DNA of 64,000 bases, from positions 51,733-115,732 of the forward strand of contig PXAT01000081.1 in NCBI GenBank assembly GCA_003565775.1, written 5' to 3'. The position numbers and the translations under genes are program-made. Each line of letters opens with the position of its first letter. Within the stretch, counting starts at the first letter, position 1. Source of the stretch: Ectothiorhodospiraceae bacterium. Lineage in GTDB: Bacteria; Pseudomonadota; Gammaproteobacteria; Nitrococcales; Aquisalimonadaceae. Of the stretch, positions 3,349 to 61,305 are shown piece after piece. The notes under the pieces are model-generated. The model was given only the letters and a program-made list of their open reading frames with translations, did not search any database and was not told the DNA's origin.

Positions 3349-3735
3349 CGGGTCATGTTGGGGCTTCGATGCCGAGCGGGCGGATGTCGGCTCCGGAACC
3401 GCCGTGAACCCATCCCTGGGGGGCTTGACGATCGCGTCCCTGCGATCGACATTCCTCCACCGACATCCGCCCGCCCGGCCTGGTGCGGGTGGCTCATCCG
3501 GGTGACATGGCTTCGTCGCCAGTCCGAATCCGGCACCGCGGTTCGGGCCGGGGTAAGGGATTTCCTCGGAGGGAATGCCTTAACCCGGCTGGGCACCACA
3601 CGGTGAAGGTCGACACTTCCCCGTCCGGTTTCAGCCCCTGGCGGCGTTGCTATCGCACCCGTGCAACCCGTTGCCGGATAACCAGAACCGGTCTCGGGGC
3701 AAGCCGTGCGAATAGATCAGCGCTGCTCCAGCCCC
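3349..3735. repeat. Composite intergenic repeat between purL and the DUF815 gene; right end overlaps the 3' end of the DUF815 CDS
   Basis: Contains a module shared with 61214-61259, a module shared with about 9390-9437, and a right-end motif GAATAGATCAGCGCTGCTCC resembling the terminal motif of the other copies. Confidence 0.6.
3376..3474. other. Long inverted repeat / potential structured RNA
   Basis: Perfect 15-bp inverted repeat GCGGGCGGATGTCGG (3376-3390) / CCGACATCCGCCCGC (3460-3474) with a nested 7-bp hairpin CGATCGC(gtccct)GCGATCG at 3429-3448. Confidence 0.6.

Positions 3736-5134: not shown

Positions 5135-5138
<4 letters not shown>
4587..5138 (-). CDS. DUF2058 family protein (YaiL-like)
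   Basis: MSDALRDQLLKTGLADAKAVKDADRAARKG... charged N-terminus typical of DUF2058. Confidence 0.8.
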
Positions 5139-6874
<1,736 letters not shown>

Positions 6875-7137
6875 GGCGGTCGGGTCCCCTGCGCAACGGC
6901 CATGGCTGCGCCCACATGATTCATTCAGGTAAGCACCTGCCTGCTCGTGTCCCGGGCGCATTTTCCGAAGCCGGTGCGCGTCGCCTGGCTGCAGATGACT
7001 GCGGCCCTGCCCGGTCGCGACATGCCTCGGGGGAAATGCGGACGCCGGCACCGGCGTGTGAGTAGAGCGGTGCTTCCGCAAGAGTTTGGGGTCAGTATAC
7101 CGGACCAAGCGCCGGAGACAGGACGCGGGAACCGGAC

Positions 7138-7165
7138 AAAAAAACGCCCGCGTGAAGCGGGCGTT
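7138..7165 (-). terminator. Rho-independent terminator of the phasin gene
   Basis: 8-bp perfect stem ACGCCCGC/GCGGGCGT (7144-7151/7157-7164), followed on the minus strand by a 7-nt T tract (7138-7144). Confidence 0.85.
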
Positions 7166-7190
7166 CGGATCATGCGGTCGGACAAGGGAC

Positions 7191-7595
7191 TCAGGCGGTC
7201 TTCTTGCTCGCCGCACGGCTGGCAGGCGACGCGGCCTTGCGCACCGTTTTCTCGGCCTTGGCCTCGACCGTCTTGACCGACTCGGCAGTCAGGCCCTGGA
7301 CCTGGCTGGCGTAGTCCTGCTGGATCTTGGTCAGCGTGCTGGCATCCTGGTTGGCACGCTCGCCCAGGGTCTTCAGCAGTTCCGTCTGGCTGCTGATCAG
7401 CGCCTGCGGATCCTGCACGCCCTGAACCGCACGCAGGTGATTCAGGCCCAGTTCCGTGTAGCCGCGCAGGGCTTCGACATGGAACTCGGTCAGGCTCGCG
7501 AGATGCTCGACGTAGGCCTCCTGCATCTTGCGCACCGGTGCCGTGACACCTTCCATCTGCTTGCTCATGTTTCCAAAGATTTCGCTGTACATCAT
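7191..7595 (-). CDS. Phasin family protein
   Basis: MMYSEIFGNMSKQMEGVTAPVRKMQEAYVEHLASLTEFHVEALRGYTELGLNHLRAV... with Ala/Lys-rich tail; start placed at internal ATG. Confidence 0.85.
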   Translation of the reverse strand: MMYSEIFGNMSKQMEGVTAPVRKMQEAYVEHLASLTEFHVEALRGYTELGLNHLRAVQGVQDPQALISSQTELLKTLGERANQDASTLTKIQQDYASQVQGLTAESVKTVEAKAEKTVRKAASPASRAASKKTA

Positions 7596-9280: not shown

Positions 9281-9283
9281 GCA

Positions 9284-9515
9284 AACACTGGTTCATTCAC
9301 GGGTCTGGGTTGGCTTCCGCATTTTTTCCGAGGCAAGGCGCGGAAATAGATCGGTGTTTCCCCGGGGACGGGTTTACGGCGGTCCCGGAGAGGGGATGCC
9401 TTACCCCGGCTGAGCACCACATCGTGAGTGTGGCACTCGAACCGAATGCCCTGGCCGGCTGCCCGAAACCGGTCTCGGGCGCGGCGTGGGCATCAGTCAG
9501 CGTTTCCCTGAGAGG
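9284..9515. repeat. Intergenic MITE-like repeat(s) between convergent kamA-like and DUF3429 genes
   Basis: AACACTGGTTCATTC...CCGCATTTTTTCCGAGGCAAGGCGCG left-end motif; right-end-like motifs ATCGGTGTTTCCCC (about 9350) and CATCAGTCAGCGTTTCCC (about 9492-9509). Confidence 0.65.
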
Positions 9516-14779: not shown

Positions 14780-15940
14780 ATGCAGGATCATGTAGTGATT
14801 GTGGGGACCGGACTCGCCGGCTACACCACGGCAAGGGAGTTCCGCAAGCATGCTCCGGATGCCCGGTTGACGCTGCTGACGGCCGATGATGGTGCCGCCT
14901 ATTCCAAGCCGATGCTGTCCAACGCCCTGCGCAAGGGGCAGACGCCGGCCGAACTGGTGCAGTCCGATGCCGAGGCCATGGCCGAGGAACTGCAGGCCGA
15001 CGTGCTCACCGGGGTGGACGTGCGAGCGATCGAGGTCAACACCCGTCAACTGGTGCTCGAAGATGGTCAGCTGGAGTACGACCGGCTGGTGCTTGCTCTG
15101 GGCGCAGAACCGCTGCCGCCGCCGCTGGACGACCAATCCGAGGGGCGCCTGCATCAGGTCAACAACCTGCAGCAGTATCGACGGTTCCGCGAGGCGCTGG
15201 GCGACGAGGGGCGCGTGCTGATCGTCGGCGGCGGTCTCATCGGCTGCGAGTTTGCCAATGATCTGATCGACAGCGGCTATGGCGTCGACCTGGTGTATCC
15301 GGAAGCCCTGCCGCTGGCCGGCCTGATTCCGGCCCCGGCGGGCGAGGCGCTGGCCCGGTCTCTCAAGGATGCGGGGGTGCGGCTGCATCCCGGCGAGACC
15401 GTGGACCGGGTGAGACCTCATGGTGACGGCATCGCCGCGGACCTGTCCGGTGGCAAGGGTGTGCGCGCCAGTCTGGCTCTGAGCGCAGTCGGGCTGCGGC
15501 CGAAAACAGAGCTGGCCGAGGAAGCCGGCCTGACCGTGGATCGGGGCATCTGTGTCGATCGTTATCTGCGCAGCAGCGATGACAGCATTTTCGCTCTGGG
15601 CGATTGTGCGCAGGTCGAGGGTTATTCGCTGTGCTATGTCGCGCCCCTGACCAATGCAGCGCGCAGTCTGGCGAAAACTCTGGCTGGCGAGCCCGAGGCG
15701 GTGCACTACCCCGTGATGCCGGTCACGGTGAAAACCTCCTGTTGCCGTATCGTGGCGTGGAGTCCTGCCGCGAAAGCGCGGGGTACCTGGCAGCACGACG
15801 GCACCGATGGGGATCTGCGCGGCGAGTTTCGTGATCGGCAGGGAGACTTGCTCGGTTTCTATCTGACCGGTTCGCGCATTCGCGAACGTATGGAACTGAG
15901 CCGGGCCATGGCGCCATTGATTTCGGCCTCAGGGGCCTGA
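14780..15940 (+). CDS. NAD(P)/FAD-dependent oxidoreductase, rubredoxin reductase type
   Basis: MQDHVVIVGTGLAGYTTAREFRK (FAD-binding GxGxxG), VLIVGGGLIGCEFANDL (NAD site), IFALGDCAQVEGYSLCYVAPL. Confidence 0.85.
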   Translation: MQDHVVIVGTGLAGYTTAREFRKHAPDARLTLLTADDGAAYSKPMLSNALRKGQTPAELVQSDAEAMAEELQADVLTGVDVRAIEVNTRQLVLEDGQLEYDRLVLALGAEPLPPPLDDQSEGRLHQVNNLQQYRRFREALGDEGRVLIVGGGLIGCEFANDLIDSGYGVDLVYPEALPLAGLIPAPAGEALARSLKDAGVRLHPGETVDRVRPHGDGIAADLSGGKGVRASLALSAVGLRPKTELAEEAGLTVDRGICVDRYLRSSDDSIFALGDCAQVEGYSLCYVAPLTNAARSLAKTLAGEPEAVHYPVMPVTVKTSCCRIVAWSPAAKARGTWQHDGTDGDLRGEFRDRQGDLLGFYLTGSRIRERMELSRAMAPLISASGA

Positions 15941-16177
15941 GGAAGCGCGGATTCGCCCCTCCGAGTGCGGTGGATACGGATTTCGGTCGCCTGACAGGGC
16001 ACGGCATCGCCAGGCGCCGAAACCGGCCGGACCCTTCGGGTTGGGCCGCGTTTTACCCGAATGCTGCGTTGCGCGGCTTGACCGCAGAGTCACTACGGCG
16101 CTGCGCAGCGCGCCTTGCCTCGGAGAAAGTGCGGACGCCAACGCAGGCGTGCGAATACTTCAGCGTTTTCTCAAAGG
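15938..16177. repeat. MITE-like intergenic repeat, reverse orientation
   Basis: Reverse complement reads TTTGAGAAAACGCTGAAGTATTCGCACGCCTGCGTTGGCGTCCGCACTTTCTCCGAGGCAAGGCGCGCTGCGCAGC, matching the 27944 and 36445 copies; other end starts at the stop codon of the upstream gene. Confidence 0.75.
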
Positions 16178-21555: not shown

Positions 21556-21826
21556 TTTGAAAAACACCTTTTAATCAGAGGTTTGTGTTTGTTCGACCAG
21601 TCGGCCCGGAGCGCACTCGCGGACTCGCGAGTAAATGGGCTGATCGTCGCCGAGGTCGGTCCGGGAAACGCTGCATGCTTCCTCGTGTCGGACCCGGATT
21701 GTCCCCGAATGTCGTGTTGCGCTGCTTTACCCCAGAATGACGGCTGGCTGGGCTGCGCAACGCGCCTGGCACCAAGGAAGATGTGGACACCAACGCAGGC
21801 GTGCGAATGCGTCAGCGTTTCCTTGA
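21556..21826. repeat. MITE-like intergenic repeat, reverse orientation, degenerate far end
   Basis: Reverse complement TCAAGGAAACGCTGACGCATTCGCACGCCTGCGTTGGTGTCCACATCTTCCTTGGTGCCAGGCGCGTTGCGCAGC matches the other copies. Confidence 0.65.
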
Positions 21827-27943: not shown

Positions 27944-28184
27944 TTGAGGAAACACTGATTTATTCTCACGCCTGCGTTGGAGTCCGCATTTTTTCCGAGG
28001 CAAGGCGCGCTGCGCAGCAGTCGGGAAAAATGCGGCCCAACCCGGCGGGCCCGGCCGGTTTCGGCCCCTGGCGGTGTTGCGCCACCGGCCCGGTAGCGAC
28101 GGCTACCGAACCGGCACCGCGCCTTGCCAGATGACCAGAACCGGATTCGGGCGCAGACGCGGGAATAAGTCAGCGTTTCCTTAA
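27944..28184. repeat. MITE-like element, best-preserved copy
   Basis: 33-bp terminal inverted repeats (27/33 match): left TTGAGGAAACACTGATTTATTCTCACGCCTGCG, right revcomp TTAAGGAAACGCTGACTTATTCCCGCGTCTGCG; subterminal GGCAAGGCGCG/CGCGCCTTGCC and central CGGTAGC/GCTACCG hairpin. Confidence 0.8.
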
Positions 28185-35326: not shown

Positions 35327-35360
35327 ACGCAGGCGTGGGAATAAATCAGCGTCTCCTTGA
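35327..35360. repeat. Solo terminal inverted repeat of the MITE-like family
   Basis: ACGCAGGCGTGGGAATAAATCAGCGTCTCCTTGA; revcomp TCAAGGAGACGCTGATTTATTCCCACGCCTGCGT matches the left end of the 27944 copy. Confidence 0.75.
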
Positions 35361-35378: not shown

Positions 35379-36440
35379 ATGATCCAGATGAAACGTATGT
35401 TCGCGTCGCCGATCCTTGCGGCAGCCTTGATCGGCGGATCGGTGGCGGAGGCGTGTACCCGGGCGCTGTATGTTGGACCGGAGGATCGAGTCCTCACCGG
35501 GCGGAGCATGGACTGGAAACTGCCGATGATCAGCAACCTTTGGGTGTTTCCGCGCGGTATGGAACGCGACGGGGTGGCCGGGACGCGCTCGGCCGAGTGG
35601 ACGTCTACCTATGGCAGTCTGGTTCTCACCGGCTATGACATCGCGACCGCGGACGGCATGAACGAGGAAGGCCTCGTGGCCAACCTTCTCTGGGAGGTCG
35701 AGGCGGCCTATCCCGAGGATGATGGTGAGACGCCAAGGGTGTCGCTTTCGGTGTTCCCGCAGTACCTCCTCGACCGATTCGCCACGGTGGACGAGGCGGT
35801 AACAGACCTGCGTCAAAACCCTGTCCAGGTGGCGGGTGGCGAGGTTCCGGTGGGTCCGCCCGGACGCGCGGCGACGGTGCATGTGTCGTTGTCAGACGCA
35901 ACCGGGGACAGTGCGGTTATCGAGTTCGTCGAGGGCGAAATGACGATTTGGCACGATCGGTCCTATCAGATCATGACCAACGAGCCGACCTATGACCGGC
36001 AGCTTGCCATTCTGGAATACTGGCAGAACGTGAACCCGCGCGAATTCCTGCCCGGTACGGTGCGTGCCTCGGATCGGTTTGTGCGGGCGCATTTCTACAT
36101 CAACGCGGTGACGCAAAGCTCGGATCCCCGTATTGCGGCCGCCTCGGTATTCAGTGTGATCCGGCAGGCGTCCGTTCCCTGGGGAATCAGCGTGGAGGAC
36201 GCGCCGAACCTGTCCACGACCCGGTGGCGCGTTGTTGCCGACCACAAGGATCGGCGCTATTACCTCGAATCCGTGATCTCACCCAGCGTGTTCTGGGTCG
36301 ATCTGGACAGCCTCGACTTCTCGCAGGGCAGCGATGTGGTCAAGCTGGACCTCGGCGTGGACATGGACCGAGTGATGTCGGGTGAAGTCTCGGCGGCATT
36401 CGAACCGGCCGCGCCCTTTGCTTTCCAGCCTGCCGATTGA
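35379..36440 (+). CDS. Choloylglycine hydrolase-family amidase with signal peptide (BSH3)
   Basis: SVAEA|CTRALYVGPEDRVLTGRSMDWKLPM; conserved Cys/Arg/Asp spacing. Confidence 0.9.
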   Translation: MIQMKRMFASPILAAALIGGSVAEACTRALYVGPEDRVLTGRSMDWKLPMISNLWVFPRGMERDGVAGTRSAEWTSTYGSLVLTGYDIATADGMNEEGLVANLLWEVEAAYPEDDGETPRVSLSVFPQYLLDRFATVDEAVTDLRQNPVQVAGGEVPVGPPGRAATVHVSLSDATGDSAVIEFVEGEMTIWHDRSYQIMTNEPTYDRQLAILEYWQNVNPREFLPGTVRASDRFVRAHFYINAVTQSSDPRIAAASVFSVIRQASVPWGISVEDAPNLSTTRWRVVADHKDRRYYLESVISPSVFWVDLDSLDFSQGSDVVKLDLGVDMDRVMSGEVSAAFEPAAPFAFQPAD

Positions 36441-36444
36441 GCGG

Positions 36445-36720
36445 TTAAGGAGACGCTTAATCTGTTCGCACGTTCGCGTTGGCATCGGGTTTTTCCGAGG
36501 CAAGGCGCGCTGCGCAGCGCCGCAGTCATTCTGCGGTCAAGCAGCGCAACACCGCAATCGGGGAACATGCGACGCCGACCCCTTGGGGCTCCGCCGATTT
36601 TGCCCCCTGGCGGTGTTGCGTCACCGGCCCGGTAGAAGCACTACCGAACCGGCACCGCGCCTTGCCAGGCTGCCAAAATCGACTCGAGCGCGGACGCGGG
36701 AATTGCTCAGTGTTTCCTCC
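36445..36720. repeat. MITE-like element between convergent BSH3 and uvrA
   Basis: TTAAGGAGACGCTTAATCTGTTCGCACG...CCGAGGCAAGGCGCGCTGCGCAGCGCCGCAGTCATTCTGCGG...CGCGCCTTGCC...GGACGCGGGAATTGCTCAGTGTTTCCTCC; starts 4 nt after the BSH3 stop. Confidence 0.78.
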
Positions 36721-42301: not shown

Positions 42302-42345
42302 TATAAGGAAAACGGGATGTGCTTCCGCGTCTGCGTCCGAGACGG
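42302..42345. repeat. Possible degenerate MITE terminal repeat upstream of uvrA
   Basis: ATAAGGAAAACGGGATGTGCTTCCGCGTCTGCGTCCGAG resembles TTAAGGAAACGCTGATTTATTCCCGCGTCTGCG. Confidence 0.35.
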
Positions 42346-47974: not shown

Positions 47975-49036
47975 TCAGTCGGCTGGCTGGAAGACGAAGG
48001 GGTCGGCCGGCCCGAAGCTGGCCGAACTCTCTCCCGCGAGAATACGTTCCATGTCGACGCCGAGGTCCAGCTTCATGACGTCCGCGCCTTCCGAGAAGTC
48101 GAGGTTGGCGAGGTCCACCCAGAAAACGCTGGGCGAGCTGACGGATTCGACGTAGTAGCGCCGGTCGAGGTGATCGGCCACAACCCGCCAGCGTGTGGTG
48201 GAAAGGTTAGGCTGATCGGCGATGCTGATACCCCACGGCACGGAAGCCTGCCTTATCACGCTGAAGACCGATGCCGCGGCGCGACGCGGATCGGCGGTCT
48301 GCTCAACGGCGTTGATGTAGAAGCTTGCGCGCACGAAGCGATCGGTGGCGCGCACGGTTCCTGGCAGGAACTCCCGTGGGTCCACGCCCTGCCAGTATTC
48401 GCGGATCGCCAACTGCCGGTCGTAGGTCGGCTCGTTGGTCATGATCTGATAGCTGCGGTCGTGCCATACGGTCATCTTGCCGTCGACAAACTCGATGATG
48501 GCGCTGTCGCCGGTCGTGTCCGACATCGAGAGGTGAACCGTCGCTGCGCGTCCCGGCGGGCCAACCGGCACCTCGCCGCCCTGCACCAGAACCGGATTCT
48601 CGCGCAGGTCTGCGACTGCCTCCGCAACCGTGGCGTAGCGGTCGAGCATGTATTGCGGGAATGCCGACAGTGAGATGCGCGGCGTCGTGCCGTCATCTTC
48701 GGGATAGGCTGCCTCTACCTCCCAGAGGAGGTTTACCACCAGTCCTTCCTCGTTCATGCCGTCTGCCGTGGCGATGTCATAGCCCGACACGACGAGGCTG
48801 CCGTAGCGTGAGGTCAACGTCGCCGAGCGTTCGCCGGCGGCGCCGTCACGCGCCATGCCGCGCGGAAAGACCCAGAGATTGCTGACCATCGGTAGCTTCC
48901 AGTCCATGCTTCTTCCGGTCAGGACTCGGTCCTCCGGTCCGAGATAGACGGCCCGTGTGCAGGCGTCGGCAACGTGCGGGATAGCGAGTGCAAGGGCCAC
49001 GGCAAAGGCAGCGATACGATGAGAAGTGAGAGTCAT
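47975..49036 (-). CDS. Choloylglycine hydrolase-family amidase with signal peptide (BSH4), close paralog of BSH3
   Basis: HVADA|CTRAVYLGPEDRVLTGRSMDWKLPMVSNLWVFPRGM; extended near-identity to the 35379 product. Confidence 0.9.
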   Translation of the reverse strand: MTLTSHRIAAFAVALALAIPHVADACTRAVYLGPEDRVLTGRSMDWKLPMVSNLWVFPRGMARDGAAGERSATLTSRYGSLVVSGYDIATADGMNEEGLVVNLLWEVEAAYPEDDGTTPRISLSAFPQYMLDRYATVAEAVADLRENPVLVQGGEVPVGPPGRAATVHLSMSDTTGDSAIIEFVDGKMTVWHDRSYQIMTNEPTYDRQLAIREYWQGVDPREFLPGTVRATDRFVRASFYINAVEQTADPRRAAASVFSVIRQASVPWGISIADQPNLSTTRWRVVADHLDRRYYVESVSSPSVFWVDLANLDFSEGADVMKLDLGVDMERILAGESSASFGPADPFVFQPAD

Positions 49037-58574: not shown

Positions 58575-58602
58575 CGACGCGGGAATACAGCAGCGCTTCC
58601 CC
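58575..58602. repeat. Solo terminal repeat of the MITE-like family between ugd and pgi
   Basis: CGACGCGGGAATACAGCAGCGCTTCCCC matches the right-end consensus GACGCGGGAATAAGTCAGCGTTTCC. Confidence 0.6.
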
Positions 58603-61172: not shown

Positions 61173-61305
61173 CGTTGGCGCGGGAACTAGAATTCAGTGT
61201 TTACCTTGCCGTCCGGGTCGCGTTGAGGCTTCGATGCCGAGCGGGCGGATGCCGGCTCCGCAAGCGCAGCGCAGGCGCCCGGGTAGACCGGTATTTCCTT
61301 AGCAT
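61173..61305. repeat. Degenerate intergenic repeat sharing a module with 3349-3394
   Basis: CGGGTCGCGTTGAGGCTTCGATGCCGAGCGGGCGGATGCCGGCTCC at 61214-61259 is 42/46 identical to 3349-3394; adjacent GGCGCGGGAACTAGAATTCAGTGTTT is right-end-like. Confidence 0.6.

Follow-up and report, generated by a model that had tools for sequence, protein, structure and literature searches.

Within the window, by which we mean the whole 64,000-nucleotide stretch analysed here, a profile model of 56 family copies found seven sites of a short repeat (Table 1). The copy at 27944-28184, on which the original prediction centred, is real and consists of a 233-bp element proper within 4-bp flanks. Recurrences claimed at about 9284-9515, 15938-16177 and 36445-36720 were all matched by the same model. 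Another, at 21556-21826, holds a partial copy of which only 21681-21822 was matched, and the end at about 3700-3735, given as partial or solo, exists at 3710-3727 as part of a partial copy. Both solo ends placed at about 35327-35360 and 58575-58602 proved to be good. At about 61173-61205 there is only a weak end (61187-61204, 4 mismatches), and a further possible site at 42302-42345 lacks support, its best motif match having 6 mismatches. The terminal inverted repeat, put at about 33 bp, is in its proper part about 18 bp long, from where pairing runs on to about 33 bp as a subterminal stem. That the window has no transposase is true for PF01609 and PF05598, the only families searched; matches to them lie on other contigs.

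Table 1. Copies of the repeat, their parts and solo ends in the window
Feature	Position	Strand	Remarks
Copy named in the original prediction, 233-bp subclass	27948-28180	+	left arm without its inner hairpin
Its left target-duplication copy, TTGA	27944-27947		one substitution relative to TTAA
Its right target-duplication copy, TTAA	28181-28184		read from the sequence
Its left terminal inverted repeat, GGAAACACTGATTTATTC	27948-27965	+	consensus, 0 mismatches
Its right terminal inverted repeat	28163-28180	-	2 mismatches
Its right-arm hairpin module	28074-28128	-	covariance model R1, 33.3 bits
Full-length 269-bp copy	36449-36717	+	profile match 36450-36717; left flank TTAA (36445-36448), right flank TCCG, match lost
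Its left-arm hairpin module	36499-36552	+	50.1 bits
Its right-arm hairpin module	36613-36666	-	26.7 bits
Reverse-orientation copy	15941-16170	-	low-coordinate end decayed; profile match 15999-16169; end at 16153-16170, then TCAA
Its hairpin module	16066-16119	-	53.6 bits
Decayed copy, both ends still recognisable	9281-9507	+	profile match 9283-9507
Partial copy	21681-21822	-	one end, 21805-21822, then TTGA
Partial copy, model positions 140-267	3620-3727	+	end 3710-3727; profile match 3620-3724
Partial copy not listed in the original prediction	6957-7077	-	profile search; at the 5' side of the called gene 5135-7216
Solo end	35339-35356	-	0 mismatches
Solo end	58583-58600	-	2 mismatches

Two other repeats were seen in the window. 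One is a 999-bp inverted repeat whose halves, 35442-36440 and 47975-48973, lie 11.5 kb apart and are 76% identical; they are probably oppositely oriented paralogous genes. The other is a 54-bp direct repeat (3349-3402 against 61214-61267, 89% identity) containing GGCTTCGATGCCGAGCGGGCGGATG; a stretch loosely like it lies near a family copy in Methylonatrum kenyense AMT 1 (G001), which belongs to the same genus as the window's genome.

Abundance, placement and target duplications

When the copy at 27948-28180 was compared by BLAST with its own genome (3.20 Mb in 215 contigs), 78 matching pieces were obtained. The 18-bp end motif, allowing up to 2 mismatches, occurs 233 times in this genome (113 + 120) and its reversed-pattern control not at all, and the density of the family is about 100 sites per Mb. 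Further copies had been expected in the genome and its relatives, and many were found: the profile gave 265 matches over 2.03 Mb of two genomes against none on reversed sequence. The window's genome has 84 profile sites in the 836 kb searched, making up 1.6% of the DNA, and M. kenyense has 77 in 1.19 Mb, its reversed control being again 0. The intergenic placement inferred from the window was also borne out. Mean overlap with genes was 0.12 in the window's genome and 0.06 in M. kenyense, compared with 0.86 and 0.84 for random placement, figures that rest on a crude gene caller. Copies are spread across tandem, divergent and convergent gene gaps.

Full copies fall into size classes, mostly between 157 and 390 bp: about 270 bp (the majority), 233-237, 157-170, 200-213, 292 and 330-390 bp. 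The smaller classes lack either one of two hairpin arms, described below, or the inner hairpin of an arm; members of the largest keep the same outer 55-80 bp and have the interior replaced. In two 270-bp copies the longest stop-free stretch, 89 codons, is the whole length in one frame, and there is no transposase. The repeats are in this respect what a MITE should be, short and non-coding, and the terminal repeats of a MITE are likewise present, as 18-bp ends with pairing continued to about 33 bp.

Target duplications, for which a check had been proposed, are of 4 bp. Of 67 paired elements, 26 have identical 4-bp flanks (YTAR-type, with TTAA and CTAG the commonest), and when the flanking windows were moved outward by 4, 8 or 12 they were identical in 1, 0 and 0 of the 67. 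In tandem copies, one 4-bp TTAA or CTAG is shared between the ends (for example GTTTCC-TTAA-GGAAAC), as is expected if insertion occurred beside a copy. At orthologous sites, the element is absent from the M. kenyense gaps for a number of copies, and reciprocally. The spacers are too diverged between the species to give base-exact junctions; dispersed copies with empty orthologous sites, a further mark of a MITE, are nevertheless found.

A partner insertion sequence of the IS5 group

A full-length transposon with the same ends was found in a genome of the same taxonomic family (G004), which has four identical copies of a 1202-bp insertion sequence (IS). Its left end, GGAAACGCTGATTTATTC, is identical to the MITE end at 18 of 18 positions. 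The four copies are flanked by CTAA/CTAG, CTAA/CTAA, TTAG/TTAG and CTAA/CTAA, so that the partner IS also meets the expectation of a 4-bp YTAR duplication; IS5 inserts at YTAR (PMC10359306). The IS resembles E. coli IS5A in length (1202 versus 1195 bp), in its single frame, in ends that start with GGAA and in its 4-bp YTAR target. The 327-aa transposase (326 aa in IS5A) carries PF05598 (DUF772) and PF01609 (DDE_Tnp_1) and shares 49% identity with InsH1 of IS5A across 314 aa, which satisfies the test of InsH homology. The resemblance is not complete: the ends of IS5A itself, GGAAGGTGCGAACAAGTC, differ from those of the partner IS and the MITE, and the window's MITE has no coding region. A transposase 95% identical to that of the partner, again with matching ends, is present in a second genome (G011), and the partner IS is thereby known from two genera other than the window's. 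By their sequence, the ends identify the repeats with the IS5 group.

Within the window's own genus the situation is different. A protein search with the partner transposase found nothing in the window's genome (G000) or in two others (G002 and G003), and in M. kenyense only residues 28-74, with a stop, adjoining an end motif followed by CTAA. This fragment is, to judge by its sequence, a relic. Since nothing more than a relic was seen in the genus, the MITE copies there look orphaned; as far as the genomes examined show, the MITEs have outlived their transposase in this genus. L090 and L091, both DDE_Tnp_1 transposases from the window's genome, were considered as partners and rejected, as no matching end pairs surround them. 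Origin of the MITE by internal deletion of the IS was rejected as well, because the ends alone are common to both. Type II MITEs have only their ends in common with an IS (PMC10969869). A 181-bp MITE with ends GGAGCCTCTGATCTATTC, TTAA on both sides and one arm module (L094:330-510) sits a few hundred bases from the partner IS copy of G011.

Taken together, the copies, duplications, empty sites and partner transposon support what the original prediction proposed, a dispersed, MITE-like family whose terminal inverted repeats are long. Most likely, an IS5-type transposase moved these gene-less repeats; we infer this mobilisation in trans, having no movement data. It might be supposed instead that they are palindromic repeats of the REP/BIME or ERIC type, moved by a RAYT or by some unknown route free of IS5, and the family is indeed intergenic, hairpin-forming, high in copy number and at times tandem. 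We regard this as very improbable in the face of the 4-bp YTAR duplications, the ends held in common with an IS5-group IS, and the single TTAA or CTAG shared by tandem copies, which fits insertion beside a copy. Correia elements and ERIC have ends and lengths other than those of the window's family. Like it, Correia elements (Neisseria) and ERIC (Enterobacteriaceae) are small intergenic inverted-repeat elements present in tens to hundreds of copies (PMC10969869).

Fold of the element and distribution of its arms

In the predicted fold, almost the full length of the 270-bp class consensus is paired, at -163.5 kcal/mol for one strand and -179.4 for the other. The predicted cloverleaf consists of a stem formed by the two ends, a left arm, a CCC-GGG mini-hairpin and a right arm. 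The arms are two 53-nt hairpins, and the left arm and the reverse-complemented right arm both read GGCAAGGCGC-(~35 nt)-GCGCAACGC. Across the 56 copies, 94.4% of cells are paired versus 92.3% in shuffled alignments, and cells changed on both sides number 135, compared with 34.5 after shuffling and 16-40 in slid controls. Part of this two-sided change falls at end positions 7, 12 and 13. At these variable positions the two ends of one copy agree far more (0.80, 0.73 and 0.71) than do ends of different copies (0.44, 0.46 and 0.35), and either correction through the hairpin or selection for pairing could explain this agreement. How many independent joint changes of the ends there have been is uncertain, because the tree of the interiors has little support (5 of 53 branches).

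Such a fold might be kept by selection as a transcribed structure used by the host, whether as terminator, mRNA stabiliser or regulatory RNA. Intergenic placement, the extreme consensus folding energy (-163 to -179 kcal/mol) and the compensatory changes would all suit that explanation, for which there are no expression data. We consider it unlikely, given that several sites are unshared between congeners, many copies are decayed or have lost an arm, and tandem, divergent and convergent gaps are all occupied. Nor is there an Rfam family for it: the window gave no Rfam match above the gathering score, and in six element loci nothing beyond a sub-threshold match (E up to 1) was obtained.

The arm module is not confined to the window's family. 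A first hint of a shared core was a 168-bp one-arm MITE in another genome (G007, L068:1455-1622), often at contig ends, which has ends TGTCCTGTCCCG and the right-arm module as in the window's family. A plain arm pattern matched 19 of 369 genomes of the class, most matches being 51-54 nt long though 29-59 were allowed. In an alignment of 19 arms (A3), 82.4% of cells are paired versus 63.9% when shuffled, with a covariation score of 0.452 versus 0.169 (slides up to 0.179). The same pattern gave 20 matches in viral contigs, and among the 16 inspected only one (L437) was module-like, the rest being seemingly due to chance; because of such matches in unrelated viral sequence, the plain pattern was not relied upon. 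A covariance model was built from A3, its training arms coming partly from exact-pattern matches. Of 229 class genomes it hit 60 at E<=1e-4, several with at least 25 matches; in a set of 200 genomes from the phylum (Pseudomonadota) it hit 27, some of them beyond Gammaproteobacteria. A further alignment of 85 arms (A4) is 86.6% paired versus 63.4% shuffled and scores 0.586 for covariation versus 0.214 (slides no more than 0.145). These last figures lean towards the model because A4, unlike A3, was fitted to it. The arms also keep a fixed arrangement: in 1.24 Mb of the genus, 28 of 29 close arm pairs are in + then - order, and 26 of those 28 are 110-114 apart.

Integron attC sites may be likened to the arm module, as they too are imperfect hairpins in which internal loops stay unpaired and AAC lies close to the base. 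The arm modules differ from them in coming as inverted pairs within a transposon-like element.

One geometry under different terminal repeats

Elements in other genomes were delimited by seeking outer inverted repeats around arm pairs. In about 25 genomes, elements of 255-280 bp have each arm about 50 bp in from its end, mostly lie at YTAR/CTAG-like sites, and are bounded by terminal repeats of about ten unrelated kinds. These kinds include GGAAACACTGATTTATTC, TACTCTTTCAAGG, TGTACTGCTTCACTC, TGTCCTGTCACACG and GGCCTGTTAACGCTATG, and further TGGGCCAAGTGGAAAG, GGGCCATACGGAAAAT, GGCGTGTCGTCATGAG, TGCAGCAACCACCC and TGGTCCATCAATATAA. Only five of the cross-genome elements have CTAG left and right; among the rest many keep CTAG, TTAG or CTAA next to one end or both, and several have no recognisable flanks. 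Many Gammaproteobacteria carry the core in MITEs whose terminal repeats are unrelated, and its geometry there is constant. The TACTCTTTCAAGG type is itself abundant in one genome (G263), with 49 ends and full pairs of 262 bp; its other classes of about 157, 333 and 385 bp, lengths computed from listed positions, are close to those of the window's family. Of the TGTCCTGTCACACG type, G074 has just one copy, no more than its control pattern yields there.

For these other ends no partner was found. No IS with matching ends lies near the PF01609 transposases of 12 genomes, most of which bear other repeat types, no 1-2 kb element with TACTCTTTCAAGG-type ends was found in G263, and no partner transposase for TGTCCTGTCACACG-type ends in G074. 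The plasmid and phage collections searched for a sister element (G117) gave no match. Sharing of ends with an IS5-family IS, which holds for the window's family, is therefore not established for MITEs with other terminal repeats, and their link to IS5 rests on the target sequence alone.

The sceptical reading of all this is that we are dealing with an ordinary type II IS5 MITE in which the ends alone matter, the interior being neutral filler and the lookalikes a product of chance or of convergence among GC-rich hairpins. Ends, target duplications and partner IS do fully account for mobility, interiors have been replaced in the 330-390-bp classes, and in Thiobacillus, Gallionella and Oscillospiraceae there are MITEs of about 110 bp that have these ends around quite different interiors. 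Against this, the arm recurs in many genera at the same 53-nt length, with the same internal loops and strong covariation; the arms form an inverted pair, each of them set some 50 bp inside the element; and across 25 elements they are more alike (0.72-0.73) than the first 24 bases (0.59; shuffled ends 0.54). The distribution of the arm and its paired geometry are already hard to reconcile with a neutral interior, and we think that explanation improbable.

Elements of the 110-bp kind, with GGAAAC...TTTATTC ends, YTAR-type duplications and different interiors, were seen in Sulfuricellaceae, Thiobacillus, Gallionella, Ruminococcus/Oscillospiraceae and others (L111, L115, L119, L124, L126, L134, L145, L165, L174, L179 and L189). 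Their length is near-constant at 108-110 bp.

MITEs are usually grouped by their ends and seen as hitchhikers whose interiors mean nothing. The folded interior described here is found with quite different ends attached, so that the interior, rather than the ends, seems to be what lasts. The explanation that we favour, and hold to be quite probable, is that these are MITEs moved by IS5-type transposases in which a two-arm core persists under ends that change jointly; the mobilisation, the joint change of the ends and any function of the core are all inferred. An IS5-group transposase would have recognised the 18-bp MITE ends, GGAAAC(A/G)CTGATTTATTC, and inserted the element, with a 4-bp duplication, at sites of the YTAR type, mostly TTAA and CTAG. 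As a single strand the 270-bp quasi-palindrome could fold into the cloverleaf, with a long stem from the ends, two 53-nt arms with conserved internal loops (GGCAAGGCGC/GCGCAACGC) and the CCC-GGG mini-hairpin. The two ends of a copy would change together, through hairpin-templated correction or selection for pairing, and by such joint change a lineage of cores could pass from one transposase to another. The core itself may have been kept as an aid to spread, by exposing hairpins at replication forks or by binding a host or transposase factor. That it is, in this full sense, a cloverleaf-core element of Pseudomonadota that switches between YTAR transposases by joint end change, with a core selected for a function in spread, we advance only tentatively, as a possibility that falls somewhat short of an even chance.

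If true, this would be a long-lived mobile element without any gene, with a conserved interior and variable ends, the reverse of the usual view of MITEs. Related MITEs would then be findable across genera by their structure, orphan MITEs without a surviving transposase would be explained, and the question would arise of whether a folded non-coding core helps a transposon to move or survive. For annotation it is relevant that draft assemblies often have these elements at the ends of their contigs, and that Rfam has no entry for them. To our knowledge no MITE class has been defined by its interior in this way, and in the open-licence literature we found no description of these ends, this core or an interior-defined MITE class. 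The type II bacterial MITEs Chunjie of Geobacter uraniireducens and QMITE2 of Coxiella burnetii are also non-coding (178-235 or about 190 bp), with terminal inverted repeats, direct repeats, truncated copies and a mostly intergenic location (PMC10969869). The window's family differs from them in its defined two-arm core, recurring under different terminal repeats in many genera.

In one further genome (G207; L351 and L362), elements that differ in their ends hold arm modules of two sequence types, and two such arm-bearing families may thus share a genome.
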